A DNA stretch of 64,000 nt, from contig NZ_CAMZOK010000001.1 in NCBI RefSeq assembly GCF_947331465.1, positions 62,001-126,000 of the forward strand. The letters are read 5' to 3'. This document shows positions 41,323 through 58,286 of the stretch, piece by piece; position 1 is the stretch's first letter, and every line of letters starts with the position of its first letter. A program made the position numbers and the translations under genes. This DNA is from Shimia sp. Alg240-R146. Its GTDB lineage: Bacteria; Pseudomonadota; Alphaproteobacteria; Rhodobacterales; Rhodobacteraceae. The notes below the pieces were generated by a model that was given only the letters and a program-made list of their open reading frames with translations, did no database searches and was not told the DNA's origin.

Positions 41323-41331
41323 CAGACCGCC

Positions 41332-43236: not shown

Positions 43237-45007
43237 AACAACGCACCTTGTGGTTGGGTCCGGTCTCCGTCAGCGGCGGAACCTCCAGACCGTCAAATCG
43301 GAATGCATCAGGCCAGCTTGAGGGCTCGCCGGCCCCCTGCGACACGATGTTGAGATCAATTGGGCGGTTGATGTCCGGCTCAGGCTGGGCCGCGATCAAT
43401 GCCTTGGTGTAGGGATGTTGCGGATCATGAAACAGCACCTCTGGCGGGCCTTGCTCCACCACCAGACCGGACCGCATCACCGCCACTTCATCGGCAATAC
43501 GTGCCACCACGGCAAGGTCATGACTGATAAACAGATAGCTCAGTTTCAGCCGGTCGCGGATGTCTTCCAGCAACTGCAAAACCTGCTCTTGAACGGACAC
43601 ATCCAGCGCCGAAGTCGGCTCATCGCACACCAAAAACGTCGGCCCCAGCATCAGCGCGCGGGCAATCGACAACCGCTGGCGTTGTCCGCCGGAAAAGGCG
43701 TGCGGATAGCGGGTCAGCATATTCTCACCCAACCCCACCCAACGCAGCATTTCGGCGGCCCGCTCGACACGGTCACTGACTGACCCAACGCCGTGGATTT
43801 CCATTGGTTCCACCAGCGCATCCTTGACGCGCATCCGTGGGTTCAAGGTCGAATAGGGGTCCTGAAACACCATCTGCGCCTTGCGCTGAAACGCCAGTCG
43901 CTCTGCTTTATCCAGCTCTTGGAGGTTAACAGCCTCGCCGCCCGTCTCAGCCCTGAACAGGATTGACGACCCGGCATCTGCCACCTCAGCGCCCAGCGCC
44001 ATCTGCGCGGTCGTGGTCTTGCCGGACCCGCTTTCGCCCACCACAGCCAGCGTTTTGCCACGCTCAACGCCAAAATTCACGCCGCGCACGGCTTGAATGA
44101 CCGACTTGGGTTTCCACGCGGAACTGCCTTTGAGCACATAGGTTTTGCTCACGTCGCGCATTTCCAGAATGTAGTCACGGTCTTCTTCGCGCTTGGCTTC
44201 CGGAATGGTTGCCGGAATTTCCGGCGCCGCCGCCATCAGATCACGGGTATAGCCGTGCTTGGGGTCGTTCAATACAAGCGGCGCAGGTCCAGCTTCCATC
44301 ACGCGGCCGCGATTCATCACCACGACGCTGTCAGCCATATTTGCAACCACACCCAGATCGTGTGTCACCAGTACCACGGCCATGCCGTATTCGGCCTGCA
44401 AATCCTTGATCAATCCCAAAACCTGCGCCTGCGTCGTCACATCCAGCGCGGTCGTCGGCTCATCCGCAATCAGCACATCAGGCCGGCCCACCATCGCCAT
44501 CGCGATCATCGCGCGCTGACGCATCCCGCCCGAAAGCTCGAACGGATAGCTGTCAAAAATGCGCTGCGGGTCTTTGAAACCCACCCGTTCAAACATCGCC
44601 AGAACCAGTTTAATACGTTCGGCCTTGCTGATTTTCTTGTGCAGCCGCAGCACTTCGGAGACCTGATTGCCAATCCTGTGCAATGGCGACAACGAGCGCA
44701 TCGGCTCCTGAAAGATCATCGAAATACGTTCACCGCGAACATCGCACATCTGACGCTCGCTCATGGACATCAAATCCACATCCGGCGCGTCCTCGCGTCC
44801 TGCAAGCGTGATTTTACCGGACCGCATCTGCGCGGCGCCCGGCAAAATACGCAAGGCCGCACGACAACTCAGCGTCTTTCCAGAGCCGCTTTCCCCAACC
44901 AGCGCCAGCGTTTCACCACGCCGCACCGAGAAACTGACATCATTCACCACCGGCGCGGCATCGCCGAAGCCGATCGTCAGGTTTTCCACAGTCAAAAGTG
45001 CCGTCAC
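43229..45007 (-). CDS. double ABC ATPase (OppD-OppF fusion)
   Basis: This 592-residue protein contains two ABC nucleotide-binding domains. The first (about 1-290) has Walker A GESGSGKTLSCRAALRI, signature LSGGMRQRAMIAMA and Walker B DVLIADEPTTALDVTT. The second (about 290-560) has GESGSGKTTTAQMALGA, SGGQRQRLSIARAL and FLVCDEPTSALDVSV. It supplies both ATPase halves for the Opp/Dpp-type importer. The gene is the first of the operon ATPase-SBP-OppB-OppC; its stop overlaps the next start by eight bases. It has the same domain plan as YejF. Confidence 0.92.
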   Translation of the reverse strand: MTALLTVENLTIGFGDAAPVVNDVSFSVRRGETLALVGESGSGKTLSCRAALRILPGAAQMRSGKITLAGREDAPDVDLMSMSERQMCDVRGERISMIFQEPMRSLSPLHRIGNQVSEVLRLHKKISKAERIKLVLAMFERVGFKDPQRIFDSYPFELSGGMRQRAMIAMAMVGRPDVLIADEPTTALDVTTQAQVLGLIKDLQAEYGMAVVLVTHDLGVVANMADSVVVMNRGRVMEAGPAPLVLNDPKHGYTRDLMAAAPEIPATIPEAKREEDRDYILEMRDVSKTYVLKGSSAWKPKSVIQAVRGVNFGVERGKTLAVVGESGSGKTTTAQMALGAEVADAGSSILFRAETGGEAVNLQELDKAERLAFQRKAQMVFQDPYSTLNPRMRVKDALVEPMEIHGVGSVSDRVERAAEMLRWVGLGENMLTRYPHAFSGGQRQRLSIARALMLGPTFLVCDEPTSALDVSVQEQVLQLLEDIRDRLKLSYLFISHDLAVVARIADEVAVMRSGLVVEQGPPEVLFHDPQHPYTKALIAAQPEPDINRPIDLNIVSQGAGEPSSWPDAFRFDGLEVPPLTETGPNHKVRCYV

Positions 45008-45443: not shown

Positions 45444-46670
45444 ATGACTGACACAGACAACAGCTTTCTTGCCTATGCGGACCGACGATTCCGTCTGAGC
45501 GGTAAAGCTCTGATAGAAAACGGACATCCGTATTTCGTACCCACCGACGCGCTGGAAGCCCGCTCGAGCGAGTGGAAAGACGGCTATCTGTCGATGTCTC
45601 ACTACGACTACTTGGGTCTGGCACATCACCCGGCCACCACCAACGCTGCAAAGACGGCCATCGACACGCTTGGCACCGGCGCAGGCGCCTCGCGTCTTGT
45701 GGGGGGCGAACGCCTCGGCCATCAGGCGCTGGAACGCAGCATGGCCGATTTTCTGGGCGTGGGCGGTACTTTGTCGGTGATTTCAGGCTATCTCACCAAT
45801 GTGTCGGTGATTCAGCTGCTGCTTGGCCCCAAGGATCTCGTGGTTGTGGACGAATTGGCCCACAATTCCATCATGGTTGGTGCCCGTGGCGTAAAATCCG
45901 ATCTCGTGACTTACGCGCACAACGATCTCGACGATCTCGAACGCATTCTGGCAGACAAACGCGACAGCTATTCGCGCGTTCTCATCTGCACCGAAGGGCT
46001 GTTTTCGATGGACGGCGACGTGACCGACCTGCCGCGACTGCTCGACATCAAAGAGCGCACTGATTGCTGGCTGCTGCTCGACGAGGCCCACAGTTATGGC
46101 GTGCTGGGTCCCACCGGCCGCGGATCTTGTGAACATTTCGGCGTTGACCCGAATCGCGTTGACGTCGCCATTGGCACTCTATCCAAAAGCTTTGCCTCAT
46201 CCGGTGGCTTCATCGCTGCCAATGCGGACGTGATCGAATGGATGCGCTTCTGCTTGCCCGGATTTGTCTATTCCGTGGGTCTCGCGCCCGCCACCGTCGC
46301 ATCCGCTCATGCGGCGCTCGACATTTTGCGCGCCGAACCTGACCGTGTGACGCGCCTGCGCGGCAACTCCCGCCGGTTCCTGCGCCGTGCCCGCGACGCT
46401 GGCCTGAATACCGGCACCGCCATTGGCGAGGCCGTGGTGCCCATTCTTTTTGACACTCCCGAAGACTGTGTATTTGTCGCCGAAGCCTTGATGCAACAAG
46501 GCATCTATGCGCCGCCCGTTGTGCATATCGGCGTTCCCAAAGACCTGCCTCGCATCCGGTTTTTCATCTCGGAAACCCACACCGAGGCGGATATCGACCG
46601 CGTGATCACCGCAGTGACCGAGGCCAGTTCCGCCGCCCGCGCCCTGCGCAACAGGATCAGCGCGGAATAA
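45444..46670 (+). CDS. alpha-oxoamine synthase, serine-palmitoyltransferase-like
   Basis: This PLP-dependent enzyme of 408 residues condenses an amino acid with an acyl-CoA or acyl-ACP with decarboxylation. Visible catalytic residues: the PLP lysine Lys248 in GTLSKSFASSGGF, Asp213 and His216 in LLDEAHSYG, and the stacking His140 in DELAHNS. The TLSKSF-SSGG context is closer to serine palmitoyltransferases (T-SKS-GG) than to the biotin or 2-amino-3-ketobutyrate enzymes (TLGKAL). Next to a ketosphinganine-reductase-like SDR, inositol synthase and a CDP-alcohol transferase, the simplest reading is that it makes 3-ketosphinganine from serine and palmitoyl thioester. Amino acid and acyl partner remain unproven. 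It is the first gene of the cluster; CGGAGA precedes the ATG. Confidence 0.83.
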   Translation: MTDTDNSFLAYADRRFRLSGKALIENGHPYFVPTDALEARSSEWKDGYLSMSHYDYLGLAHHPATTNAAKTAIDTLGTGAGASRLVGGERLGHQALERSMADFLGVGGTLSVISGYLTNVSVIQLLLGPKDLVVVDELAHNSIMVGARGVKSDLVTYAHNDLDDLERILADKRDSYSRVLICTEGLFSMDGDVTDLPRLLDIKERTDCWLLLDEAHSYGVLGPTGRGSCEHFGVDPNRVDVAIGTLSKSFASSGGFIAANADVIEWMRFCLPGFVYSVGLAPATVASAHAALDILRAEPDRVTRLRGNSRRFLRRARDAGLNTGTAIGEAVVPILFDTPEDCVFVAEALMQQGIYAPPVVHIGVPKDLPRIRFFISETHTEADIDRVITAVTEASSAARALRNRISAE

Positions 46671-46675
46671 CGCTC

Positions 46676-47329
46676 GTGCAAATCGCCGAGCCTAGACACA
46701 CCTTCTACCTACGCTGCCTCACGACCTTTCGTCGGCTAACGGCGCTGGTCCTTTTGGGCCTGTTGCTCTCCGCGCCTGACCTGTCGGCCAAACCGCAACT
46801 GACTGTCGAGTCAGTCACCTCCAGCGCCACGCTTCCGGCGGCCAACCCCGCCTTTAAACACCCCAACGACCTGCATCAGGTCTTTTTCCTGCAACGCAAC
46901 AGCAACGCCAACACCATCGTCTGGGTCGCGCAATTTGATCCGGATGGGCGCTTGAATCCCGACCGCCCAATCGCCGGATATTGGCGCCGGTTTGCGGGCC
47001 GCGGCCATGTGATGGCCTTCCGCTGGTATGAGCGTGTATTCGGATTTGGCACCAAATCCCGCGAACTTGCCGACGGATCAGGCTTTGAGGTGCGATTTAA
47101 TGGCATAAAAAGCGAACAATTACTGCTCAAGCAGAACGGACCCTTTGACGCGGCGCTCTATACACGGCAAAACGGGCGCGACCTTAAAATGATCTATGGA
47201 TATCTGGAAGTGGACGAAAGCGGGCTATTGCCAAAAGTTGTGCGATTGCGCCTATACACGTCTGACCCGAAAACGGGCCAGTATTCCACACACACAATTG
47301 CCGTTTCCGGTGGAGCCTTCCGCGAATGA
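46676..47329 (+). CDS. exported DUF4833 protein
   Basis: This 217-residue protein has an N-terminal signal or anchor (hydrophobic LTALVLLGLLLSAPDL, cleavage near LSA-KP) and a DUF4833-like domain. Its blocks are NANTIVWVAQFDPDGRLNPD, PIAGYWRRFAGRG and RVFGFGTKSREL. No catalytic motif is obvious. The GTG start at 46676 is five bases after the previous stop, and its TGA overlaps the inositol-synthase ATG (ATGA), so it is produced stoichiometrically with that enzyme. The location implies a periplasmic role in handling the lipid, but the function is unknown. Confidence 0.72.
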   Translation: MQIAEPRHTFYLRCLTTFRRLTALVLLGLLLSAPDLSAKPQLTVESVTSSATLPAANPAFKHPNDLHQVFFLQRNSNANTIVWVAQFDPDGRLNPDRPIAGYWRRFAGRGHVMAFRWYERVFGFGTKSRELADGSGFEVRFNGIKSEQLLLKQNGPFDAALYTRQNGRDLKMIYGYLEVDESGLLPKVVRLRLYTSDPKTGQYSTHTIAVSGGAFRE

Positions 47330-48441
47330 CTACTGAAGAGACCAAAACACTGATCCGCACCGTAATTGTGGGGGTTGGTAACTGTGCGAGTTCCCTCATT
47401 CAGGGCGTGTCCTACTGCCGTTCCGTCGGCGATGCCGCCATCGGGGTCAGCTTTCCCGATCTGGCAGGCTATACGCCCTCCGACATTGAACTTGTTGCCG
47501 GTTTCGACGTGGACTCGCGCAAGGTGGGCTCCACTTTGGGAGAAGCCGCTTTTGCCCCGCCCAATTGCACCGAACAATTTCACACCGACATAAGCGATCA
47601 AACCGGACCCGTGCTGCGCGGACCTGATCTCGATGGCGTCGCCGCGCATATGCTGGCCAAACCCGAAGACCGCAGCTTCCGTTTGTCGGCAGAACCCGCC
47701 CTGAGCAAAGACGAGATTGTTGCCAAACTGCGCGACCTGCAGGCCGAGGTGATGATCATCTTCCTGCCCGTCGGATCGCAAAAGGCTGTCGAATTCTACG
47801 CGGAATGCGCGCTTGAGGCCGGTGTCGCCGTGGTCAACGGCATTCCCGTGTTCATCGCCTCGCACCCCGTGTGGGCCGAAAAATTCCGCACCGCCGGCGT
47901 TCCGATCCTTGGCGACGATTTCAAAGCACAGTTTGGTGCCACAATCGTGCACCGCACGCTGGCCAACCTTGCCGAAATGCGCGGCGTCGAAATCGACCGC
48001 ACCTATCAACTCAACGTTGGCGGCAACACCGACTTCCTGAACATGAGCGAAAACGCCCGGCTTGCGAACAAACGCGAAAGCAAAACCGAAGCCGTGCAAG
48101 CCGTAATGGAAGAACGTCTGGACGAGAACGACATTCGCATCGGCCCCTCCGATTACGTGCCATGGCTGAATGATCGCAAAGTTGCCTATGTGCGGCTCGA
48201 AGGCCGCCTGTTTGGCGGCGCGCGTACCAACATCGAGGTGCGTCTGGATGTCGAGGACAGCCCCAACGCCGCTGCCGAAGCATTGGTAGCCATTCGTCTG
48301 GCCCGAATCGCCTGTGACCGTGGCTTGGCCGGACCCATCGTTGACGCCTCCGCCTTTCTCTTCAAACATCCGCCGGAACAGATCGAGGACACCGACGCCC
48401 ACGACGTGGTCCTCAAATTCGCGAACGGGACCGAGGACTAA
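47326..48441 (+). CDS. ino1: myo-inositol-3-phosphate synthase
   Basis: This 371-residue enzyme converts glucose 6-phosphate to 1L-myo-inositol 3-phosphate with NAD. It has the N-terminal NAD motif VIVGVGNCASSLIQGV (about 13-28), the active-site region GDDFKAQFGATIVHR, NVGGNTDFLNMSE, then IGPSDYVPWLNDRKVA and EVRLDVEDSPNAA, all conserved in the actinobacterial/archaeal-type synthases. Inositol synthesis is uncommon in alphaproteobacteria, so placement within a lipid cluster with a CDP-alcohol phosphatidyltransferase points to an inositol-phosphate head group. Its ATG overlaps the DUF4833 stop; the SDR gene follows two bases after its stop. Confidence 0.93.
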   Translation: MTTEETKTLIRTVIVGVGNCASSLIQGVSYCRSVGDAAIGVSFPDLAGYTPSDIELVAGFDVDSRKVGSTLGEAAFAPPNCTEQFHTDISDQTGPVLRGPDLDGVAAHMLAKPEDRSFRLSAEPALSKDEIVAKLRDLQAEVMIIFLPVGSQKAVEFYAECALEAGVAVVNGIPVFIASHPVWAEKFRTAGVPILGDDFKAQFGATIVHRTLANLAEMRGVEIDRTYQLNVGGNTDFLNMSENARLANKRESKTEAVQAVMEERLDENDIRIGPSDYVPWLNDRKVAYVRLEGRLFGGARTNIEVRLDVEDSPNAAAEALVAIRLARIACDRGLAGPIVDASAFLFKHPPEQIEDTDAHDVVLKFANGTED

Positions 48442-48443
48442 TC

Positions 48444-49244
48444 ATGCCCGGTCCGGCCTTCGTCACCGGCGGCTCAAGTGGCATCGGCCTTCAAACGGCC
48501 CGCCAACTCGCCGCCCGAGGCCATGACATCGCACTGTTTGCGCGCGACCCTGGCAAACTCGCTGCGGCGCGCGAACTCATCCTATCTGAAACCCCGAATG
48601 TGACCGTGCGGGAATTCCCCGTTGATGTCTCCAGCCGCACCGAAATCACCGCAGCCGTGACCGAAGCCGTCCGCATCATGGGTGCGCCGGACTATGCCAT
48701 CGCGTCAGCAGGCATTTCCGAACCGGGCCTGTTTGTCGACCAACCGCTGGACACCCACGAACGCCATATGGCGGTGAACTACTTTGGCGCGCTCTATTTC
48801 GCCCATGCGCTGGTCGACCCGATGCGCGCCAACGGCGGCGGGCGGCTTGGGTTTGTCTCTTCTGTCGCGGCGTTTTTCGGCATCTACGGCTACAGCGCCT
48901 ATGCCCCCTCAAAATTCGCGCTCTCAGGATTGGGCGAAGTGCTGCATCTGGAACTGGCCGAGGCCGGTATTTCGGTCACGGTGCTGCATCCGTCTGACAC
49001 TGAAACGGCGATGCTGGCCTCAGAAAACCTAACCAAGCCAGCTGCCACTGCCGAAATTGGCGAAGGCGGTGGTCTCTGGAAACCGGAAGACGTGGCAATA
49101 CGTCTGATCGCTGCCATGAACGCAGGCCGCGCCACCGCGGCCACTGGCGTGCAGATGACCGCACTCGGCGCACTCTCCAGTCTGCTTGCGCCGGTTCTGC
49201 GTTGGCACCAACGCCGCATTATCAAAAAGCACCGTCGCGAATGA
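48444..49244 (+). CDS. SDR, 3-ketodihydrosphingosine-reductase-like
   Basis: This 266-residue short-chain dehydrogenase has the cofactor motif TGGSSGIG at 8-15, the serine pair at about 139-140, and the catalytic Tyr153/Lys157 in YSAYAPSKFAL. The segment following the catalytic lysine, SGLGEVLHLELAEAGISVTV, and the C-terminal hydrophobic stretch (about 235-255) resemble eukaryotic-type 3-ketodihydrosphingosine reductase (KDSR). The C-terminal segment could associate with the membrane. The role would be NADPH reduction of 3-ketosphinganine to sphinganine, the step after the synthase at 45444. Its TGA overlaps the next ATG (ATGA). Confidence 0.78.
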   Translation: MPGPAFVTGGSSGIGLQTARQLAARGHDIALFARDPGKLAAARELILSETPNVTVREFPVDVSSRTEITAAVTEAVRIMGAPDYAIASAGISEPGLFVDQPLDTHERHMAVNYFGALYFAHALVDPMRANGGGRLGFVSSVAAFFGIYGYSAYAPSKFALSGLGEVLHLELAEAGISVTVLHPSDTETAMLASENLTKPAATAEIGEGGGLWKPEDVAIRLIAAMNAGRATAATGVQMTALGALSSLLAPVLRWHQRRIIKKHRRE

Positions 49245-50131
49245 CACCACTTCTCGTGACAGACATGGCGATGATCGCTGGCGGGCTTGTGCTCGTCGGG
49301 TATGTCCTGCTTACCACCGTGGCCCTGATCCCGGCGCGCCGTGCAGTTGGGATCGAGTTGCTCAAGGTGTTTTTCAGCGCCACGGTGATCATCTGCGTGC
49401 TTGTGGCGCTGTTTTTGACCGGCAACCCCGTGCTTATCCCCGCACTTGGCCTCGCGGCCCTTCGCATCGGCGTCGAATCCGCAGTCGTACGTATGCCGGA
49501 CGGGCCTGCGCCGCTGTTGATTGGATTGCTCAGCACCGGCCTCACCGTGGCCGCGATCCTTGACGCCCGTCTTGCTGTGGCTGTGCTTGGCGTCTGGCTG
49601 TTATTGTTTGCGCGACTGGTGATTTTGCCCAACGCCTCCAATCCGCGCCCCTCAAAATCCATCCTCGACATGCTTGTGTTCCCGATCCTGCCCTTTGCGC
49701 TGTTGGCCCATGGCGCAGTGCAAGCGGATCTCGCAGGGCTGATCCTCGCCGCGTATATTCTGGTCGAGGTGTTTGACAGCCTCGCTCTGCTCTCAGGCAA
49801 ACTCTTCGGCCGCACCAAAGCCTTCCCGACGCTCAGCCCGAATAAAACCGTCGAAGGCCTTATTGGCGGCGCGCTCTGTCTGATTGTGATCACCGCGCTC
49901 AGCGCGCTCATTCTAAACCAGCCGCTCTTTCTGTCCTGCGGTGTCGCGTTGCTTGTCGGCTTCTTGGCTGTTGCAGGAGATCTCTCCGCCTCCCGTCTCA
50001 AACGCATTGGCGGGGTCAAGGATTTCCCGGTTGTCCTCGCCCGTCAGGGCGGTCTTCTGGACAGCCTCGACAGCTGGATCGCGGCTGGTGCCGGGCTAAC
50101 CGCGCTCCATCTTGTGGCGGCTCTGTGCTGA
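49241..50131 (+). CDS. phosphatidate cytidylyltransferase (CdsA-like)
   Basis: This 296-residue protein has about seven or eight membrane helices and the CdsA signature at residues 249-278: SASRLKRIGGVKDFPVVLAR, then GGLLDSLDS. The usual final Arg (LDRxDS) is replaced by Ser. CdsA makes CDP-diacylglycerol from CTP and phosphatidate. The start at 49241 overlaps the SDR stop by four bases; an earlier frame start is not supported. A roseobacter would be expected to have its own housekeeping cdsA near uppS, so this is probably a second copy serving the CDP-alcohol phosphatidyltransferase in the same cluster. Its lipid substrate could be phosphatidate or a ceramide/sphingoid phosphate. Confidence 0.82.
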   Translation: MTPLLVTDMAMIAGGLVLVGYVLLTTVALIPARRAVGIELLKVFFSATVIICVLVALFLTGNPVLIPALGLAALRIGVESAVVRMPDGPAPLLIGLLSTGLTVAAILDARLAVAVLGVWLLLFARLVILPNASNPRPSKSILDMLVFPILPFALLAHGAVQADLAGLILAAYILVEVFDSLALLSGKLFGRTKAFPTLSPNKTVEGLIGGALCLIVITALSALILNQPLFLSCGVALLVGFLAVAGDLSASRLKRIGGVKDFPVVLARQGGLLDSLDSWIAAGAGLTALHLVAALC

Positions 50132-50171
50132 TCGGCTTGCCAGCAAGCCCGCAGGCAGGGACTATCCCCTC

Positions 50172-51299
50172 ATGAGTCTGCACCAAACTTTCCTGCGCCA
50201 ACCGGTGCTGCGCATCATCGGCTGGCCGATCCTGTGGCGGTTGTTGCTGATTCTGGCGGTGATCGAGGCTATTTTTCTCGCCGAAGAGTTCACCGGCTTG
50301 CTGCAACTTGCACTGCGGCTGGACGGCCCCGCATCTGTGATTGGTCAGATGCTGATCTTTCGCATGCCCGCAATATTTGATCTGGCGCTGGCTTTTGGCC
50401 TTTTGATTGCCGTCTATTTCGCAGTTGGCGAAGCCCGCGACAACGGCGAACTTGTGGTTTTGGCCACAGCTGGCATTCCGTGGTGGCGGGTGGTGACTCT
50501 GGTTCTCGGCATCGGGTTGGCGGGCGGTCTGCTCAGCTTATTAAACGCCGGCTATATACTGCCTATGGCCAAGTTTTCCGAACGGGTCACAGTGGCTGAG
50601 TTGCGCAAAGACTACGTGCTGAACCGGATTCAAACGCCTGACCACAAAACCGCATTGCAAACAATCGAGGACACCACCTTTGTGTCCACCCCACCAAACG
50701 ACGGCGATCCCAATCGCAACGGCAACCTTTTTGTGTTTCAGCCCGATGTGAACGGATTTTGGCGCGCGGCCACGTCGCGCAACTGGCAAATCAACGCCGT
50801 GGACTCCGACCGTCACGTCATTGCCCTGCAAAACTTGGCGGTCCACGATGTGCCGCTCGTCCCACCAAGCACACCTGCATTCATGAACCGCTACGAAGTC
50901 TCGGCAGCGGATTTCACCTTTGACATGTCCAAGGTCATTCCCGACGTCGATCGCGAACGCAGCGCTGCGGAAAGATTTCTGATGGTGTCTCAGGACCAGA
51001 CCCGGCGCATCACAAACATTGCCACCCGCGCCCTGATGGTGCCGCTTGCCGGACTACTGGCGCTGGCGGCGTTGGTCGCTGCGCGCAACACCCTGACCCG
51101 CCTTCTGGCTTTGCCGTTGTCGGGCGTATTGATGTTGTCCATCGACGTGGCCAGCCGCGCCACTGTTGTTGGCTGGATCAACGCCCTGCCGGAACAGGCC
51201 ATTGCCCTTCTTTCCGTGCTGCTCTACCTCGCGCCTCCGCTGCTGTTCCTTGCCTTCAAAAAGGAGGCGCTGATGAAACCGGCGGCGCGCGACCTATGA
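50172..51299 (+). CDS. LptF/LptG-family (YjgP/YjgQ) permease, first
   Basis: This 375-residue protein has the YjgP/YjgQ plan: three N-terminal helices (first about 19-40), a long periplasmic domain (about 130-285) and three C-terminal helices (RALMVPLAGLLALAALVA onwards). The cytoplasmic region GEARDNGELVVLATAGIPWW holds the coupling-helix block (E..NGELVVL.ATAGIPW) of LptF/LptG. LptFG carry lipopolysaccharide across the inner membrane with LptB2. Here the gene is inside a lipid-synthesis operon and not next to lptD, so it is probably a specialised paralog. Its stop overlaps the second permease by four bases. Confidence 0.83.
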   Translation: MSLHQTFLRQPVLRIIGWPILWRLLLILAVIEAIFLAEEFTGLLQLALRLDGPASVIGQMLIFRMPAIFDLALAFGLLIAVYFAVGEARDNGELVVLATAGIPWWRVVTLVLGIGLAGGLLSLLNAGYILPMAKFSERVTVAELRKDYVLNRIQTPDHKTALQTIEDTTFVSTPPNDGDPNRNGNLFVFQPDVNGFWRAATSRNWQINAVDSDRHVIALQNLAVHDVPLVPPSTPAFMNRYEVSAADFTFDMSKVIPDVDRERSAAERFLMVSQDQTRRITNIATRALMVPLAGLLALAALVAARNTLTRLLALPLSGVLMLSIDVASRATVVGWINALPEQAIALLSVLLYLAPPLLFLAFKKEALMKPAARDL

Positions 51300-52441
51300 G
51301 CCTGCGTGCCCACACCGGCATCGCTATGCGGATGATGATGCGCAGCTATCTGCAAACCATCGGCTTCGTCATGTTTGCGCTGCTGGTGATCGCGCTGTCC
51401 ATCGACCTGGGAAAAACCCTCGAAAGCCTGCGCGCCAAGGCGGATGCGACCGACACCCCGCTGTGGCGCCTGTTGCTGCCCTATGCCTCCTATCGGGCAA
51501 CCGATATCATCACCCGCCTGCTCGGCACCGCCTGCGTTGTGGGGGGCTTTGTTGCCGTGTTGTTGCGCCATCTGCGCCGCGAGGATGTGGTTCTTGCGGC
51601 AGCGGGAATGTCGCCGCGCGTGCACTTTTCGGCCCTTCTGGCTGTCGCGCTTGTTGTCGGCAGCGTGCAATTCGGGTTTCAAAATTGGCTGCGTCCCATG
51701 GCAGTAAAAGCCCAAGTCGAAACGCAACTCGGCCGGTACGGTCGTTGGTTCGGCGCGCCTCGTCTGGACGACCAGTGGGTTCTTAACAACGACATGGCGC
51801 TGCGCGTAAGCATCATTCGCGGCGACTCCGCCCGACTGGAATCTCTCAAGATCTTCGAAGGCCTGTCTGCGCCGACCCTCACCCGCCTAATTGATGCAGA
51901 CTCGGCCTTGCCTGATCCGGCCACCGGCCTTTGGGAACTGCAAAACGTCACTCTCTGGGCGCAAAATACCGGTTTTGCTCCGGTTCACGCAGACAGTTTA
52001 ACCTTGGCGCTGCCGCTCAGCGCGGCGCAGCTGCAATGGTATGACGTGCATGGCTATTACCTGCCCAACGCCGTCGCCCGCGACATCTCCCAACTCACCG
52101 GCACCGCCGCAGCCACCGACGCCGCAACGGTGTTGGCCTTCCGCAAAGCCGCGCTCTTGTTGCCGGGTATTTTTGTGCTGCTCGGCGCGTCTTTGGCGCA
52201 GACAGGCATCAGGGGCCGGCGGTTCAACGCGCCGCGCCTGTTGTCCCTGGCGGCTGCGGGATATCTGTCTGTTGTGATTGTAAAATCCTTTCTCATTTTG
52301 GGCATAAACGGTCGCATCCAACCGGAATTGTCAGCCGCCCTGCCATTGGCAATTGCCTTCGCGATTGCCTGCCTCTTACAACTGCGGCACGCGGGGTATT
52401 TGTTCCGCGCCTCACCTGTCGACCGAAAGCAAGTCTCGTGA
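51296..52441 (+). CDS. LptF/LptG-family (YjgP/YjgQ) permease, second
   Basis: This 381-residue protein is the partner permease. It has N-terminal helices (VMFALLVIALSIDLGKTL is the first), the coupling-helix region LRREDVVLAAAGMSPRVHFS (which lacks the NGE of the usual motif), a periplasmic domain (about 125-260) and C-terminal helices (LLPGIFVLLGASLAQTGIRG, LLSLAAAGYLSVVIVKSFLI). It should form a heterodimer with the preceding protein. Overlaps at both ends (ATGA with the first permease and GTGA with the glycosyltransferase) indicate tight coupling to the cluster. No ATPase of the LptB type is encoded here, so it would use the housekeeping one or the exporter nearby. Confidence 0.8.
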   Translation: MSLRAHTGIAMRMMMRSYLQTIGFVMFALLVIALSIDLGKTLESLRAKADATDTPLWRLLLPYASYRATDIITRLLGTACVVGGFVAVLLRHLRREDVVLAAAGMSPRVHFSALLAVALVVGSVQFGFQNWLRPMAVKAQVETQLGRYGRWFGAPRLDDQWVLNNDMALRVSIIRGDSARLESLKIFEGLSAPTLTRLIDADSALPDPATGLWELQNVTLWAQNTGFAPVHADSLTLALPLSAAQLQWYDVHGYYLPNAVARDISQLTGTAAATDAATVLAFRKAALLLPGIFVLLGASLAQTGIRGRRFNAPRLLSLAAAGYLSVVIVKSFLILGINGRIQPELSAALPLAIAFAIACLLQLRHAGYLFRASPVDRKQVS

Positions 52442-53556
52442 AAATCGTTCAGCTGACTCCCTATGCCATGGACCGCCCCGGCGGTGTGCAAAGCCACATC
52501 CGCGACCTGACCGGCTGGCTGCGCACCCAAGGCCATGACGTGCGTATTGTTGCGCCGCCCGGTGATACGCCGGTCGATGATCTCGACGGGTTGATCGAAC
52601 TTGGCAGCGTGCGCCAAATCGCCGTGCACGGCACAAAATTTGAACTTACACGCGCCAATCGAGCTGATCTCGCGTCCTGTGTTGCGGCGTTGCGCGACTG
52701 GGGCGCCGAAGTCGCCCATTTGCACACGCCATGGACACCGATGCTGCCGCTTCAGGTATGGCGTGCACTTGATATTCCGGGGGTCGCCACTTTTCACGCG
52801 ACCTTGCCCGACAGTGGCGGCTTTGATCCGCTCGCTTGGGCTTTGCGCCGGTCCGCGCATTGGTTCAACCGACGGCTTGCTGGCATTGTGGTGCCATCCA
52901 AAGCCCCGCAAGAGCAATGGCGCGCTAACAACGTTTCCCCCGTGCCGGGCATTCTCGCGCCAACCATCGATCTGTCCAAATGGCGCGCCGCCCGCGATGC
53001 CAACACCCCCGGCGACGGATTTCATGTGGTCTGCATGGGCCGGTTAGAGGAGCGCAAAGGCGCCGCCACACTGCTCTGCGCGTGGCACGAAGTGCAAACG
53101 CAACGTCCTGATGCACGGCTGACCCTCGCCGGAGACGGCCCATGCAAAGCCGACTTGCTGGAACAGGCCAAAAACCTCGACCTACACTCCGTCAGCTTTG
53201 TGCCACCACCCGACAACGCCGCCGCTCGTGACTTGATCGCCAGTGCGGATGTCTTTGCCGCGCCCGCCTTGCATGGCGAAAGCTTCGGCATCGTGCTGAT
53301 CGAGGCGATGGCCGCCGGCACCCTGCCGGTTGCCGCAAGCAACGTCGGCTATGCCACCGTCATGACCGGCCCCGGCAGCGACCTGCTTGTGCCACCCGGC
53401 GACGCCCCTGCTTTGGCCCGCAAGTTGCTGGAGCTTGCCAGTCAACCAGCGCTTCAAACCAAGCTTTTGCGATGGGCCAAAGGGCACGCGGATCACTATG
53501 ACGTGCGCCATCTCGGCCCTGCCTATGAGGCGTTTTTTCACGGCGCACTAGGCTGA
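52438..53556 (+). CDS. glycosyltransferase family 4, lipid-cluster member
   Basis: This 372-residue GT4 protein begins KIVQLTPYAMDRPGGVQSHI, the acceptor-loop pattern of lipid glycosyltransferases such as PimB/PimC-like enzymes. Donor-domain blocks are MGRLEERKGAATLLCAW, LAGDGPCKADLLEQA and the E-x7-E region HGESFGIVLIEAMAAGTLPVAA. Its GTG start overlaps the permease stop (GTGA). It has no transmembrane helix. In context it would add a sugar to inositol, ceramide or a related lipid, by analogy with the phosphatidylinositol mannosyltransferases of the same family. Acceptor and donor are inference. Confidence 0.87.
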   Translation: MKIVQLTPYAMDRPGGVQSHIRDLTGWLRTQGHDVRIVAPPGDTPVDDLDGLIELGSVRQIAVHGTKFELTRANRADLASCVAALRDWGAEVAHLHTPWTPMLPLQVWRALDIPGVATFHATLPDSGGFDPLAWALRRSAHWFNRRLAGIVVPSKAPQEQWRANNVSPVPGILAPTIDLSKWRAARDANTPGDGFHVVCMGRLEERKGAATLLCAWHEVQTQRPDARLTLAGDGPCKADLLEQAKNLDLHSVSFVPPPDNAAARDLIASADVFAAPALHGESFGIVLIEAMAAGTLPVAASNVGYATVMTGPGSDLLVPPGDAPALARKLLELASQPALQTKLLRWAKGHADHYDVRHLGPAYEAFFHGALG

Positions 53557-53643
53557 ACCAACGGTTGCCAAACCCTCTAAGGTCATGTCAGACCAAACAT
53601 AGGTGTTCGTGGACACAAAAAGACTTTGAAGGACGGGGCAGCA

Positions 53644-55167
53644 ATGCAAGGCGATCTGGTTATTTCAGCCGATTTCGGCACGTCCGGCGTCAAAGTCGGC
53701 GTGGTGGACGGCGATTTGAATGTCCTCGCCCGCGTGACCGAAACCTATCCCCTGACACTTGGCGCTGGCGGCATAGCCGAACAAAACCCTGACGACTGGT
53801 GGGGCGGCCTGACCCGCGCCGTTGCGGAGCTGCGCCAACAGGTTCCCGACCTGCGCGACCGTGCCGCGGTGGTGGTGTTTTCCGCGCAGCTCTGCGGCCT
53901 GATCTGCGCTGACGAAACCGGCCACGCCCTGCGGCCCTGCATGACGTGGCTCGACAAACGCGGCAGCGCACTTGTGCAAGCCCTGATCGGCGGCTTTCCT
54001 CAGGTGCACGGCTATCAGGTTGGCAAACTGGCGCGCTGGCTGCGTCTTGCCAATGGCGCACCCGCGAAAAACGGTATGGACGCAGCCGCCAAAATCCTGT
54101 GGATGCACCACCACGAGCCGGAGATTATGGATCGCACCCGCTGGCTAATCGACGCCAAAGACTGGCTTGTGCACCGCGCCACCGGTGTGATGACCACCAG
54201 CCCTGAAAGCGCAAACCTGTCTTGGATGATGGACAGCCGCCGCGGCCGCGAGGGGTGGTCACCACAGTTGGCAAAAATCGTCGGCGCACCGCTGGAAAAA
54301 CTCGCGCCTATTGTGACCGCCGACACACTTGTCGACACCCTCACGCCGCAAGCTGCAGCCGAACTTGGCCTCTCGCCAAGCACTCAGGTTCTTGCCGGGA
54401 CGTCAGATGTGACCGCCGCCGCGCTTGGATCGGGCGAGATGGAAGACGGCGCGCTGCACATTTCGCTCGCAACCTCCGCTTGGATCGCCGGTTTCCTCCC
54501 CAACCGCCGCCTCAGCGTGCCCTACTCATATGCGACTGTGACCTCCGGCCTCGACATGCGCCCGCTACTGATCGCCAGTCAGGAAAACGCTGGCTCCGCA
54601 CTCGATTGGGCCGCCAAGGTCACTGCAGGCGCCAACGCCCGTCCCGGTGACGACCTCGGCGCGCCACAACCCGATGACCCGTTCTTTCTACCTTGGTTGG
54701 CGGGCGAACGTATGCCGGTCGACAACGATGCCCTGCGCGGCACGTTCTTTGGCCTGTCGCTGCACCACGACGCGACCGCCATGCGCCGCGCTGCACTTGA
54801 AGGCGTCGCGCTCAACTTGCGCTGGGCGATGTCCAAGATCAGCCGCGAAAAAGGTCTGCGCAAAACCGGCCCAGTGACGCTGGTCGGCGGCGGCGCGGCC
54901 AATCCGCAAATGGCGCAAATGCTGGCCGATGCGCTCAACCGTGACATCCTAGTTGGCGAAACCCGCCATGCCGGGATGCTGGGCACCGCAACGCTTGCCG
55001 CCAAAACGATGGGTTGGGCTGCCTCCCCTGCCGAAGCAGCCACCCGCCTGCGCAGCCGCCCGAACGCGCATTACACACCGGATTCCGCCCGCGTCGACGC
55101 ACTGGCCGTCCGCGCCGCGCGCCTCGAAAAACTACGCCGTGCCGCGATCCGCAGCTATACGGCCTGA
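53644..55167 (+). CDS. FGGY-family carbohydrate kinase
   Basis: This 507-residue kinase has the two FGGY domains. The N-terminal phosphate-binding motif is SADFGTSGVKVGVVDGD, and the second phosphate motif and signature lie in LAGTSDVTAAALGSGEMEDG. The C-terminal block GPVTLVGGGAANPQMAQMLA is the adenosine-binding region of xylulokinase, glycerol kinase and related enzymes. I choose the ATG at 53644 because AAGGA lies about ten bases upstream; a TTG at 53626 would extend it by six residues. It phosphorylates a sugar or polyol, possibly inositol or another head-group alcohol, just before the CDP-alcohol phosphatidyltransferase. The substrate is not predictable from sequence alone. Confidence 0.88.
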   Translation: MQGDLVISADFGTSGVKVGVVDGDLNVLARVTETYPLTLGAGGIAEQNPDDWWGGLTRAVAELRQQVPDLRDRAAVVVFSAQLCGLICADETGHALRPCMTWLDKRGSALVQALIGGFPQVHGYQVGKLARWLRLANGAPAKNGMDAAAKILWMHHHEPEIMDRTRWLIDAKDWLVHRATGVMTTSPESANLSWMMDSRRGREGWSPQLAKIVGAPLEKLAPIVTADTLVDTLTPQAAAELGLSPSTQVLAGTSDVTAAALGSGEMEDGALHISLATSAWIAGFLPNRRLSVPYSYATVTSGLDMRPLLIASQENAGSALDWAAKVTAGANARPGDDLGAPQPDDPFFLPWLAGERMPVDNDALRGTFFGLSLHHDATAMRRAALEGVALNLRWAMSKISREKGLRKTGPVTLVGGGAANPQMAQMLADALNRDILVGETRHAGMLGTATLAAKTMGWAASPAEAATRLRSRPNAHYTPDSARVDALAVRAARLEKLRRAAIRSYTA

Positions 55168-55180
55168 AACGGAGTTCACC

Positions 55181-55816
55181 ATGATTGACGGGCTGCTCAA
55201 GACCAAAATCGACCCAATGTGGGAAGCGATGTCCACTCCGCTCGTTAAGGCCGGCCTGACGCCAAATCAGGTCACCGCCACGGGTCTGGTGCTGATCCTT
55301 CTGACGTCGCTGGCTTATCTGTGGCACGCCTCACCGGTGGTCTACGGCCTCTCCCTCGCGGTGGCCTTTGCCTTTGACGCGCTGGACGGCGCAGTGGCGC
55401 GCCGCACAGGTCTGTCTTCCCGATCCGGCGGCTATTTTGACGCCATGGTGGACCGCTACCAAGAACTCGCCGTTCTGGCCACTCTGGCCTTCATGCACGA
55501 CCTTTGGCCACTGGCACTGGCCTGCTTTTCCGGCAGCGTAATCACCTCATATGCCAAGGCCCGCACCGCCATCGAAATGCCCGTTTCCAACACCGATTGG
55601 CCTGACTTCTTCGAACGGATGGAGCGGGTGATTTATCTCTGCGCCATGCTGTTGCTTGCCGGCGTGTTCGGCGACTGGATCATGATGGCCGGCCTTGCGG
55701 GGTTCGCCATCCTGTCTCACGCCACCGCCTTGCAACGCGCCCGCCGCGCTTTTGGCATGCTACGCGACGCCGACACAGCGCCTCAGGCCGACACCACCGA
55801 TGGCCCCCGAACATAG
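55181..55816 (+). CDS. CDP-alcohol phosphatidyltransferase
   Basis: This 211-residue membrane protein has the complete CDP-alcohol phosphotransferase signature: Asp66, Asp69, Gly70, Ala73, Arg74, Gly83, Asp87 and Asp91 (DALDGAVARR...GGYFDAMVD). Helices flank the motif (VTATGLVLILLTSLAYLW, LYGLSLAVAFAFDALDG). These enzymes exchange the CMP of a CDP-lipid for an alcohol or alcohol phosphate, as in phosphatidylinositol-phosphate synthase. The ATG at 55181 follows GGAG by six bases. With inositol synthase, a second CdsA and the kinase in the same operon, an inositol- or polyol-phosphate acceptor is the best guess. It overlaps the convergent gene at its 3' end by 34 bases. Confidence 0.9.
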   Translation: MIDGLLKTKIDPMWEAMSTPLVKAGLTPNQVTATGLVLILLTSLAYLWHASPVVYGLSLAVAFAFDALDGAVARRTGLSSRSGGYFDAMVDRYQELAVLATLAFMHDLWPLALACFSGSVITSYAKARTAIEMPVSNTDWPDFFERMERVIYLCAMLLLAGVFGDWIMMAGLAGFAILSHATALQRARRAFGMLRDADTAPQADTTDGPRT

Positions 55817-56562
55817 CGCAAAATCGTCACAACACTGTCCGGCACAAAGCTCAGAACGTAGAACAGGAACGACGACAACAGCATCGGTTCTGTCGACACA
55901 TAGACCGTGAACAGCGGTTTGTTGATCACGCCGAAATCAAAGTCCTTGAGAATGAAACAGCTGAGATACACCACCGCCAGCAGGACCGGCACCCAGACGT
56001 AAACCCGCCGCACCCGCGCCATAACCGGCAACATCACCTGCCCCTGCGCAGGCAACCGTCCATAGGCGGTGGTTATGAGATGCCCGACAAAAACCACTGC
56101 CGCCTGACTGAAGAAAAACAAATAGCTTCCGGTCATGTGCCCCAAATGGTGATCGGGAAAACGCCAGTGGCTCAAGATCACCAAACCCACCGATGCCATC
56201 GCCTGCAACACCACCAGCACGCAACTCACTCGCAAAAACCAGCGCAGCGTCTGCGGCGCGGCAGACCCGTTTTGCCGCAACTCATGCAACGCCGCCCAGA
56301 CCAGCAGCCCGACCCCGACAAACAACACCGGTGCACAGATCGCCATCCACTCTGCAAAGGGTTCTCCGATGCGCGGATCGGAAATGGCGCGGCTGATCGT
56401 CGGCGACTTGCGTGCGGTCCTTTCCGGATGAAAGACGATGAAGTCCCACCGCGCCGTGTAAATCAACGCGTTGACCACCCAGACCACAAAGGTCGTGCAC
56501 AACACCGAAATGCTCAGACCAAGTACCGTTGCTTTCTTCGGCAATTGCGTCGAAGTGCTCAT
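55783..56562 (-). CDS. six-helix membrane protein, Frag1/DRAM/Sfk1-like (tentative)
   Basis: This 259-residue protein has six predicted helices, around residues 13-35, 72-96, 110-132, 144-165, 187-207 and 227-247. Its conserved-looking blocks include SPTISRAISDPRIGEPF, SHWRFPDHHLGHMTGSYLFF and HLITTAYGRL. The layout and the IS...P / H...F pattern remind me of the Frag1/DRAM/Sfk1 family, whose yeast and animal members act in lipid remodelling or lipid asymmetry; this is only a resemblance. Its ATG overlaps the exporter's stop (ATGA), so the two are one transcriptional unit, converging on the lipid operon. Function unknown. Confidence 0.6.
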   Translation of the reverse strand: MSTSTQLPKKATVLGLSISVLCTTFVVWVVNALIYTARWDFIVFHPERTARKSPTISRAISDPRIGEPFAEWMAICAPVLFVGVGLLVWAALHELRQNGSAAPQTLRWFLRVSCVLVVLQAMASVGLVILSHWRFPDHHLGHMTGSYLFFFSQAAVVFVGHLITTAYGRLPAQGQVMLPVMARVRRVYVWVPVLLAVVYLSCFILKDFDFGVINKPLFTVYVSTEPMLLSSFLFYVLSFVPDSVVTILRYVRGPSVVSA

Positions 56563-58286
56563 GTCCGTTCCTTTGCTTTCGCGGGGTTCAGTTGCGCGTC
56601 TGAAACCACCTTGCCGCCAGCCATTTTGATAAGCCGGTCGCATTTGTGAAACTGGTGATCGTCATGTGTCACGGCCAGCACCAACTGACCCGACGCACTC
56701 AATTCCGGCACCAGCACATCATAGAAAAACGCGCGGTTTGCCGGGTCCTGATCGGCGGCAAATTCATCCAGCACAATAATCGGGCGCTTCTCCGCAAGCG
56801 CCACCGCAAGCGCCAATCGCCGGCTTTGTCCAGCAGACAGCGACCGCGTGGAAAATTTGTCATCCAACATCGATACCCGCCCGCGCAAATCCAGCTGATC
56901 GATTCGGCGCTCCAGTTCTGCCAACTCGGACTCCGACATGCCATAAGCGTGCTCAAACAGATGGAATCCGGAGAACACGCCCGTGAACAGCTCCCGATAG
57001 GCCGCCGTCATCGCATCATCCAACGCCTCGCCATTCAATCGGACTTCGCCTTTGGTCGGATGCCGCAACCCGGTGATAAGCGACAAGAGCGTGGTCTTGC
57101 CTGACCCGTTGCCGCCGCAAATAAACACGGTCTCGCCCGGCCGGAACGTCAAATCCACCGGCCCCAGATGAAACGACGTTGCATCCGGTTTGTCCGGCTC
57201 ACCAATCGTGGCTTCAACTCCGGCCAATGTGATCTCGTCAAACCTGTCGATTTGCGGCCCCTCGTGGGTCAACGACGCGCTTTGCGAGCCTGCAAGGGCA
57301 TGTTCCACCGAACGGATGCGGTGATACGCCGTTTCAGACTGGCTCAGGTTTGGCATGGCATTGAACAGCGTTTCAATTGGGCCATTCACCAGAAAGATGA
57401 TGGACAACACCTGAAACAAAACTGTGGCATCTGCGACCTGCACAATCGGCAAGCCAATAACGACAAAACACAGCAACAGGATAATCGCGGATTGTCCCAC
57501 GCCGTCGCTGGCCGCAAACAACTGCTGTGCCTGCATACGCGCACCCACGTGCTTGTCGATCACCTCTAAGGTTTCTTCTTCCAGAGCGTCCCGGCGCGTC
57601 TTTCTCAGCCGCAGCTCTTTCCAGCCGCCCAGCATGTCACCAACGCGATCGCAGTACTCCGAGAACAGTGCACTCGCCTGTGCGCCATATCTGCGGGCAG
57701 GCTTGTCCAAAAGCACGAAGCCGATTGTACCGATGCCCACCGCGACCAAAGCCGCGATCCCCGAAGCAGGGGACACATACGCCAGATAGGGCAGCGCAAA
57801 CCCCAAAACGACAATCGCCCCAAATACCTCGGCCATGGACGTGACCGCGAGGGACAGCACGTTGATCTCGGTGGTCATCGCCGAATACACTTTCCCGTGC
57901 TTCTGCGACAAAAGAAAATCAATGTTGGCCCGCAGCAACAATTTCGACGTCCGCCTGCGCAACAGGCGCGACACCGAGGTGACCAAAACAAACGCCCGCA
58001 TCCGCTGAAAGTATCCGGCGACCAACATCGCCAACGCGCAGACTATCAACAAAAGCGACGACCAATTGAATATGTCCCCTGCCGCCCGCGCAGTTTCGTT
58101 GATCGCAAAAATCAGACCCGCGCGTGAAAAGCTGGCAACCAGAATCAGTATCAACAGCGGATCGCGCAGCAGTCCACTGGCCCGCATCAGGAACCGAAGA
58201 ACCGTCCAGCGCCGCTCGACCATCGCCCGCAAACTGCCGTCCTCGGGGCTTGGAATGTCTTTGAATTCGATGGTCATTTGCCTCAC
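56559..58286 (-). CDS. ABC exporter, permease-ATPase fusion
   Basis: This 575-residue protein has an N-terminal six-helix exporter domain (about 35-320) and a C-terminal ATPase. The ATPase has Walker A CGGNGSGKTTLLSLITG, signature RSLSAGQSRRLALAVAL and Walker B IIVLDEFAADQDP, with HDDH following. The architecture matches SyrD/PvdE-type cyclic-peptide or lipid exporters. The GTG start at 58286 has GGAG five bases upstream; the in-frame ATG at 58277 has its candidate ribosome-binding site too close. It is paired with the six-helix membrane protein, at the 3' side of the lipid cluster. Export of the lipid product is a plausible role; substrate unproven. Confidence 0.85.
   Translation of the reverse strand: MRQMTIEFKDIPSPEDGSLRAMVERRWTVLRFLMRASGLLRDPLLILILVASFSRAGLIFAINETARAAGDIFNWSSLLLIVCALAMLVAGYFQRMRAFVLVTSVSRLLRRRTSKLLLRANIDFLLSQKHGKVYSAMTTEINVLSLAVTSMAEVFGAIVVLGFALPYLAYVSPASGIAALVAVGIGTIGFVLLDKPARRYGAQASALFSEYCDRVGDMLGGWKELRLRKTRRDALEEETLEVIDKHVGARMQAQQLFAASDGVGQSAIILLLCFVVIGLPIVQVADATVLFQVLSIIFLVNGPIETLFNAMPNLSQSETAYHRIRSVEHALAGSQSASLTHEGPQIDRFDEITLAGVEATIGEPDKPDATSFHLGPVDLTFRPGETVFICGGNGSGKTTLLSLITGLRHPTKGEVRLNGEALDDAMTAAYRELFTGVFSGFHLFEHAYGMSESELAELERRIDQLDLRGRVSMLDDKFSTRSLSAGQSRRLALAVALAEKRPIIVLDEFAADQDPANRAFFYDVLVPELSASGQLVLAVTHDDHQFHKCDRLIKMAGGKVVSDAQLNPAKAKERT

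Follow-up and report, generated by a model that had tools for sequence, protein, structure and literature searches.

A 64,000-nucleotide stretch of the genome of Shimia sp. Alg240-R146 (contig NZ_CAMZOK010000001.1, positions 62,001 to 126,000; hereafter the window) carries ten plus-strand open reading frames (ORFs), all open and contiguous, at positions 45444-55816. They combine an alpha-oxoamine synthase (AOS) and a short-chain dehydrogenase/reductase (SDR) with inositol head-group and lipid-transport genes, and we propose that the locus probably makes a sphingoid lipid with a glycosylated inositol-phosphate head and exports it to the outer membrane, as predicted from gene families and gene order. 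The locus is larger than these ten genes and includes a convergent Frag1-family gene and an ATP-binding cassette (ABC) exporter gene, so that it spans 45444-58286. The features, given with their most likely start codons and their matches to Pfam, NCBIfam and the Protein Data Bank (PDB), are the following.

45444-46670, plus strand: AOS, probable sphingoid-base-forming enzyme (Aminotran_1_2; best PDB matches serine palmitoyltransferase, SPT, 3a2b/8guh)
46676-47329, plus strand: DUF4833 protein with a signal-like N-terminus, judged by eye (PF16117, 66.8 bits, cut-off 23.1)
47326-48441, plus strand: inositol-3-phosphate synthase INO1 of the actinobacterial (mycothiol) type (PF01658; TIGR03450; PDB 1gr0)
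48444-49244, plus strand: SDR, probable 3-ketosphinganine reductase of the KDSR type (adh_short; PDB TSC10 8jat)
49241-50131, plus strand: CdsA-like cytidylyltransferase with an altered signature (PF01148, CTP_transf_1, 117 bits; Thermotoga maritima CdsA 4q2g, E 4e-14)
50172-51299, plus strand: LptF-type permease (PF03739, 58.4 bits; TIGR04407, 71.1 bits, cut-off 230)
51296-52441, plus strand: LptG-type permease (PF03739, 78 bits; TIGR04408, 78.9 bits, cut-off 240)
52438-53556, plus strand: GT4 glycosyltransferase, PimA-like (PDB PimA 4n9w and 2gej)
53644-55167, plus strand: FGGY carbohydrate kinase (PF00370/PF02782; best PDB match xylulose kinase 2itm, E 1e-41)
55181-55816, plus strand: CDP-alcohol phosphatidyltransferase, probable inositol-phosphate transferase (CDP-OH_P_transf; NF040950, NF045883; PDB)
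55783-56562, minus strand: Frag1/DRAM/Sfk1-family membrane protein, a convergent conserved neighbour (PF10277, 32.0 bits, cut-off 30.3)
56559-58286, minus strand: ABC exporter of the cyclic-peptide exporter class, candidate flippase (PF00005/PF00664; TIGR01194, 281.3 bits, cut-off 286.2)

Neighbouring genes overlap by 4 bp at 47326, 49241, 51296 and 52438, the wider gaps measure 40 bases (50132-50171) and 87 bases (53557-53643), and the CDP-alcohol transferase carries a perfect signature, DALDGAVARRTGLSSRSGGYFDAMVD. A first-pass annotation of the DNA had described these ten genes with the same positions, overlaps, gaps and signature, and all were recovered as claimed; its family calls agree with Pfam, and the gene that it left unnamed encodes the DUF4833 protein. 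It had also placed the DNA in a roseobacter, which fits Shimia as the host (the closest named locus by AOS is that of Shimia sp. SK013, at 97% identity), and its proposals of inositol-lipid genes, a KDSR-like SDR, a transport module and an operon are borne out by the comparisons below, in which the operon is conserved over many genomes.

Conservation was assessed in 80 named loci, the best 80 of 125 confirmed AOS loci. In 42 of these the first seven genes (AOS, DUF4833, INO1, SDR, CdsA-like, LptF and LptG) keep the same order and strand, and the GT4 gene follows the seven-gene block in 40 of the 42 clusters, which come from Rhodobacterales, Stappiaceae and one Mesorhizobium-labelled metagenome-assembled genome (MAG). 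Because it is kept down to identities of 56% for AOS and 28% for LptF, this order is not the product of chance. Across the order, 15 of 292 genomes have an AOS match at E <= 1e-80, and nine of the 15, the Shimia genome included, hold the ten genes in order, with extra genes interposed in some. One (G087) has the AOS only, the rest of the cluster being absent, and in the other five the AOS (42-46% identity) adjoins very long ORFs that resemble polyketide synthases (PKS) by eye. Three of the loci L041-L085 are without the seven-gene block: L067 has the AOS alone, L069 meets a contig end and L074 meets one after four genes. At L067 and L033 the solitary cluster-clade AOS has an elongation-factor-G-like gene on one side and a class V aminotransferase gene on the other, and the rest of the cluster has apparently been lost.

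The distal genes are conserved as well. A homologue of the CDP-alcohol transferase (60-78% identity) is present in 28 of 30 genomes, the two without it being the Rhizobiales MAGs L087 and L088, and it adjoins the FGGY gene in 13 of 14 stretches (the fourteenth, L134, is irrelevant). Shimia and several further loci have Frag1 and ABC exporter genes next to it; at L133 the CDP-alcohol transferase, FGGY, Frag1 and ABC genes stand together on a contig other than the cluster's. DUF4833 exceeds its cut-off in 2 of 385 genomes of the class, both of this genus, with one further match below the cut-off.

Among the inositol head-group genes, INO1 is nearest to the inositol-3-phosphate synthase 1gr0 in the PDB (E 1e-105) and scores 376 bits against TIGR03450 (cut-off 638). 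For the CDP-alcohol transferase, the best solved relatives are inositol-phosphate transferases, and its best NCBIfam models are archaetidylinositol phosphate synthase (NF040950, 121.9 bits, cut-off 180) and then phosphatidylinositol phosphate (PIP) synthase (NF045883, 78.4 bits, cut-off 170). The GT4 protein has three solved relatives at E <= 1e-12, PimA 4n9w and 2gej (both about 1e-35) and 3oka (E 1e-12), with no PimA model among the NCBIfam matches listed; it probably glycosylates the inositol head group. In the CdsA-like protein the KD of the signature is kept, and in all 42 clusters Gln replaces His and Ser, Ile or Thr replaces Arg of the GHGG..DR found in the reference CdsA of E. coli and T. 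maritima. Such an alteration points to an unusual substrate, which might be a sphingolipid phosphate; no sphingoid or ceramide kinase was recognised here.

Evidence for the sphingoid part comes mainly from context, that is, from DES1-like desaturases, from sister AOS genes beside homologues of ceramide and inositol phosphoceramide (IPC) synthases, and from Lpt permeases near spt genes, which together point to a sphingoid product. The AOS itself has SPT as its top PDB matches, both with the single sequence and with a profile. The SDR carries the motifs TGGSSGIG (TGxxxGIG) and YAPSK (YxxxK), and the 3-ketodihydrosphingosine reductase TSC10 (8jat) ranks first of its 546 PDB matches (E 1e-23); it is a probable KDSR-type 3-ketosphinganine reductase, the SDR family being crowded and the ranking suggestive only. 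The Shimia genome encodes a DES1-like desaturase (G000:C1:1882204-1883262; L165:9199-10287, minus strand) that shares 61% identity with the desaturase found inside the cluster of Ca. Rhodobacter lobularis. It is unlinked to the locus, with none of the lipid gene set adjacent and MFS-like and TRAP-like genes on its flanks (by eye). Desaturases of this type lie inside seven of the 42 clusters and are present in 21 of the 28 cluster-holding genomes searched, the Shimia genome included. Six aligned desaturases share a C-terminal GYH[NS]EHH block, and the first-start variant of P0012, the reference for this desaturase type, has no solved relative at E <= 0.001.

The two Rhizobiales MAGs hold sister AOS genes, 53% (L087) and 51% (L088) identical to the window AOS, and these stand with a homologue of YghO/bCerS (38%, E 3e-82) and a PAP2 protein that matches phosphoinositol dihydroceramide synthase (NF052609, E 1e-35, below cut-off). 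YghO is the proposed ceramide N-acyltransferase of E. coli, as described in PMC9386255. Both MAGs also carry PgpA, INO1 and desaturases that pass the cut-off of the sphingolipid Delta4-desaturase family PF08557 (2 of 2; 31.4 bits in L087, 29.8 in L088). This is apparently a whole IPC kit, and a ketosynthase-like ORF (by eye) lies with it.

The transport genes recur beside AOS genes of different kinds. In E. coli BL21 the spt locus adjoins lptF/lptG, weak LptF or LptG matches (39-80 bits) lie within the stretch in six of nine conventional alphaproteobacterial spt loci, and Caulobacter LptC2/F2/G2 are described near spt (PMC11324152). This recurrence suggests private Lpt permeases for sphingoid lipids. 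DUF4833 is a possible periplasmic part of the transport; against solved structures it gave a single, non-significant match (E 0.54). An identification of DUF4833 with Bacteroides BT_1524 was rejected, as BT_1524 is described as a GtrA-type membrane protein (PMC9246714).

Genes, their order, their conservation and their family relations are read directly, and from them we infer every substrate, the order of steps and the final structure in the following scheme. The AOS would form a 3-keto base by condensing an amino acid (probably serine) and an acyl thioester. The KDSR-type SDR would reduce this base, and the unlinked DES1-like desaturase of the genome may introduce a double bond. INO1 would make inositol-3-phosphate, the CdsA-like enzyme would activate a lipid phosphate with CTP, the CDP-alcohol transferase would couple inositol phosphate to the activated lipid and the PimA-like GT4 would place a sugar on the inositol. 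The ABC exporter would then flip the lipid, and LptF/LptG with a shared LptB, perhaps with DUF4833 as periplasmic partner, would carry it on to the outer membrane. Further pieces of the head group would come from FGGY.

Related clusters hold additional genes, which in this scheme would add head-group pieces where they encode a nucleotidyltransferase, a second CDP-alcohol transferase, Stealth or aminoethylphosphonate enzymes. Between LptG and GT4, 29 of the 42 clusters have a nucleotidyltransferase gene on the opposite strand and 27 a second CDP-alcohol transferase gene (both families assigned for L031). A Stealth gene lies 3' of GT4 in at least 19 of the 42, a desaturase gene follows GT4 in seven, and a PgpA gene follows CdsA in 12 Stappia-type clusters (L073, L075-L085). 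The PgpA gene speaks for the proposed lipid, a PgpA-type gene (BT_1525) being part of the Bacteroides phosphatidylinositol (PI) pathway (PMC9246714). Upstream of the AOS, 15 loci (L073, L075-L085, L053, L071, L072) have phosphonate genes, assigned for L073 as a phosphoenolpyruvate mutase fused to a nucleotidyltransferase, a phosphonopyruvate decarboxylase and a 2-aminoethylphosphonate aminotransferase, which suggests a phosphonate head group in those relatives. The Shimia window cluster has no nucleotidyltransferase, second CDP-alcohol transferase, Stealth, PgpA, phosphonate or desaturase gene.

Several observations weigh against a sphingoid product. Expected partner genes were not found: bCerS is not found in the Shimia genome (L088 served as the positive in the search) and occurs in just 2 of 28 cluster genomes, at 32% identity and away from the cluster; in one of these two, G255, a CerR-like gene and another AOS accompany it. 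An IPC synthase of the L088 type is found in 0 of the 28 cluster genomes, against 2 of 2 for L087/L088, in a search that a distant enzyme could escape. No AcpR or AasR is among the twelve cluster genes (a genome-wide search was not made); both are said to accompany SPT across alpha-, beta- and gammaproteobacteria (PMC9386255). PgpA is absent from the Shimia cluster, where the 40-base gap between CdsA and LptF leaves no room for it. Co-occurrence of the P0012-type DES1-like desaturase was counted in cluster-bearing genomes only, with no cluster-free control, and 0 of 5 cluster-type desaturases pass the PF08557 (Lipid_DES) cut-off (Shimia gene, 14.7 of 23 bits). BLAST gives no match of the window LptF/LptG to E. 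coli LptF2/G2, nor any of the SDR to E. coli CerR at E <= 1, and the sole match of the window genes to the E. coli spt set at E < 0.01 is that between AOS and SPT. With neither bCerS nor the L088-type IPC synthase in evidence, different enzymes would have to perform N-acylation and head-group joining, or else the product lacks an N-acyl chain.

The same absence of an L088-type IPC synthase favours an alternative in which the head-group genes make a glycosylated phosphatidylinositol, a glycerolipid like the PI-mannosides, and the AOS and SDR make a separate amino lipid that shares only transcription and an exporter with it. INO1, the CdsA-like enzyme, the CDP-alcohol transferase and the PimA-like GT4 do resemble the actinobacterial PI-mannoside set, and that pathway acts on diacylglycerol. 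However, the AOS and SDR genes are interleaved with the inositol gene in all 42 clusters, the two deviating CdsA signature positions are unexpected for ordinary CDP-diacylglycerol synthesis, and L087/L088 combine close kin of the AOS with an IPC synthase homologue, so that we consider two separate lipids unlikely.

Further points against concern the AOS. Among the NCBIfam models it scores best with BioF, though under the cut-off, and it also falls short of the cut-offs of all three SPT models (NF047600, 277 of 640 bits; NF047599, 271.3 of 500; NF047603, 199.2 of 670). In a tree of 57 rows that include SPT, KBL, BioF and ALAS, it forms a starred clade of its own, outside all four groups and thus not inside SPT. 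SPT is the sister of this clade at 80/40 support, with long-branch warnings for BioF and SPT, and in approximately unbiased (AU) tests KBL (p 0.114), BioF (0.244) and ALAS (0.311) are each not rejected as the sister. The AU tests, the long-branch warnings and the sub-cut-off scores mean that phylogeny does not establish the name SPT. The first-pass annotation had read an SPT-type pyridoxal phosphate (PLP) site and had proposed a tree as the check. The AOS motifs are GTLSKS and DEAHS, the latter an Asp/His site of the DEAH type. In the former the PLP lysine follows a Ser, which is also true of the four SPTs in the comparison; the residue at this position is Gly in the compared KBL and BioF and Ala in ALAS. 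The Ser-Lys pair is thus present as claimed, but it is not specific to SPT, because PKS-linked and Desulfovibrio homologues carry the same Ser; likewise, the best tree keeps the AOS apart from KBL, BioF and ALAS, and the firm grouping with KBL or AONS that the annotation had named as a refutation did not come about, but membership in SPT proper is not established. The annotation had not foreseen that searches of the genome would find neither bCerS nor the L088-type IPC synthase; its sphingoid and inositol operon mostly holds, as a prediction.

The AOS could instead use alanine, glycine or cysteate and give a 1-deoxy, norsphingoid or capnine-like base, and hence no sphingolipid proper; the several sister groups compatible with the AU tests leave room for this. 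Where 'HAS' stands in the SPT, KBL, BioF and ALAS compared, the clade reads 'HNS'; it also has a 'YDYL' motif, and BioF, its best model, is an alanine user. Yet a base without a 1-hydroxyl could not bear a head group at C1, and both the Ser before the catalytic Lys and the best PDB matches agree with SPT; we regard another amino acid as rather improbable. AOS homologues also stand beside PKS-like or capsule genes, which again speaks against a sphingoid product, but that the lipid is an anchor or primer of a surface polysaccharide, with AOS and SDR releasing a long chain that is then phospho-glycosylated and exported, is very improbable: related AOS genes near PKS-like ORFs in other Rhodobacteraceae (by eye), the Acidisoma capsule locus and the Stealth and FGGY genes in clusters would fit it, whereas inspection of the cluster stretches by eye, with no targeted search, revealed neither a polysaccharide polymerase nor a Kps gene, and the LptF/LptG, inositol and DES1-like genes better match a membrane lipid.

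The AOS family is found in varied surroundings. In L034-L038, from other Rhodobacteraceae, a sister-clade AOS adjoins very long PKS-like ORFs, mostly with an SDR (by eye), and is perhaps part of a chain-releasing system. An Acidisoma plasmid (L152) has an AOS (50%), an SDR, a sterol-desaturase-family gene and capsule genes, and many Desulfovibrio (L093-L120) have a wider-clade AOS (42-48%), some near glycosyltransferase and asparagine-synthetase-like genes. On a Streptomyces anthocyanicus plasmid (L153:1227-6065) the AOS domain is C-terminal in a protein some 1600 aa long. A second and distant AOS is encoded in Shimia abyssi (G255), where a bCerS homologue and a CerR-like gene accompany it beside a radical-SAM-like ORF (L177:4766-8265; by eye). 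The window AOS is 31% identical to that of E. coli BL21, and its own genome encodes two further AOS, a KBL-clade protein and an ALAS. That genome has no match to the alphaproteobacterial SPT model NF047603 at E <= 1e-100, which is found in 24 of 190 genomes of the class. Upstream of the cluster, an oligopeptide-type ABC transport system lies on the minus strand (39146-45007 of the window), 436 bases from the cluster start, and in two Maritimibacter loci (L131, L137) a similar-looking solute-binding ORF (by eye) adjoins the CDP-alcohol transferase.

Returning to a glycosylated inositol-phosphate sphingoid lipid as the product, the locus can be set beside four known systems. The mycobacterial pathway to PI and PI-mannosides uses Ino1, PIP synthase and PimA, and the Shimia INO1 (nearest 1gr0), transferase (near PIP synthases) and GT4 (nearest PimA) are alike; the Shimia locus adds sphingoid genes and Lpt-type export. 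The E. coli BL21 spt locus likewise has an AOS gene adjoining an LptF/LptG pair, but it has no inositol head-group genes and instead an acyl-AMP ligase, an acyl carrier protein, an epimerase-type reductase and YghO. As described, the Caulobacter locus CC_1168-CC_1152 shares an AOS, a CdsA-domain protein (CC_1161), a CDP-alcohol-type enzyme (CC_1159) and a second LptF/LptG adjoining lipid genes, as well as nucleotidyltransferases, which here occur in relatives only (PMC11324152). It differs in that the Shimia AOS belongs to another clade, the SDR is unlike CerR, AasR, AcpR and CerS are not among the cluster genes, and INO1 and a PimA-like GT4 stand in place of the glycerate chemistry described there (PMC11324152). 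The Caulobacter CdsA-domain protein is proposed to make NDP-activated ceramide, with ceramide kinase supplying ceramide phosphate (PMC11324152), which may serve as a precedent for the CdsA-like step, not as proof. In the nine conventional spt loci there is no INO1, DUF4833, FGGY or PimA-like GT4 at E <= 1e-5, with one weak match each to a CDP-alcohol transferase and a nucleotidyltransferase; a scan for the CdsA-type motif found none, with a pattern that may be too strict to judge orthology of CC_1161. The Bacteroides cluster BT_1522-BT_1526 shares INO1 (MIPS), a CDP-alcohol inositol-phosphate transferase and, as reported, the union of sphingolipid with inositol (PMC9246714), and also a PgpA-type gene, here in 12 relatives' clusters only. 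For phosphoinositol dihydroceramide, an inositol-phosphate ion of m/z 241 is named (PMC9246714). In Shimia, however, the AOS lies inside the cluster, unlike BT_0870 (PMC9246714), the IPC synthase (AUR1-like, NF052609) is not found in its L088 form, and GT4, LptF/LptG, DUF4833 and a CdsA-like gene are added. On these likenesses, we think it rather likely that the locus is a variant among bacterial (inositol-)sphingolipid loci.

In the literature, a 2020 survey has alphaproteobacterial sphingolipids as appearing restricted to Sphingomonadales (PMC7179689), and Caulobacter sphingolipids were reported in 2019 (PMC6445935). Also against a sphingoid product, the available part of a roseobacter lipid study with Stappia stellulata cultures names sphingolipids only when discussing capnine (PMC8319176). 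The route of sphingolipids to the outer membrane is called unknown in PMC11324152. We found no publication on this locus in the open-access literature, with preprints outside that scope.

A bolder proposal, possible but which we hold as doubtful, is a third bacterial sphingolipid route, with synthase, reductase and acylation independent of Bacteroides and Caulobacter, that would yield a glycosyl-inositol-phospho-sphingolipid through a CDP-activated sphingolipid rather than AUR1-type exchange, with a private LptF/LptG system inserting it in the outer leaflet of the outer membrane in roseobacters and Stappia. An inositol-sugar head on a sphingolipid is otherwise typical of fungi and plants, and such a lipid would be a bacterial counterpart of fungal mannosyl-inositol-phosphoceramide (MIPC) and plant glycosyl-inositol-phosphoceramide (GIPC). 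If the prediction of a glycosylated inositol-phosphate sphingoid lipid is true, Stappia and the marine roseobacters are expected to contain sphingolipids, sphingoid synthesis would gain one more lineage, and the locus would bear on how sphingolipids are transported to the outer membrane.

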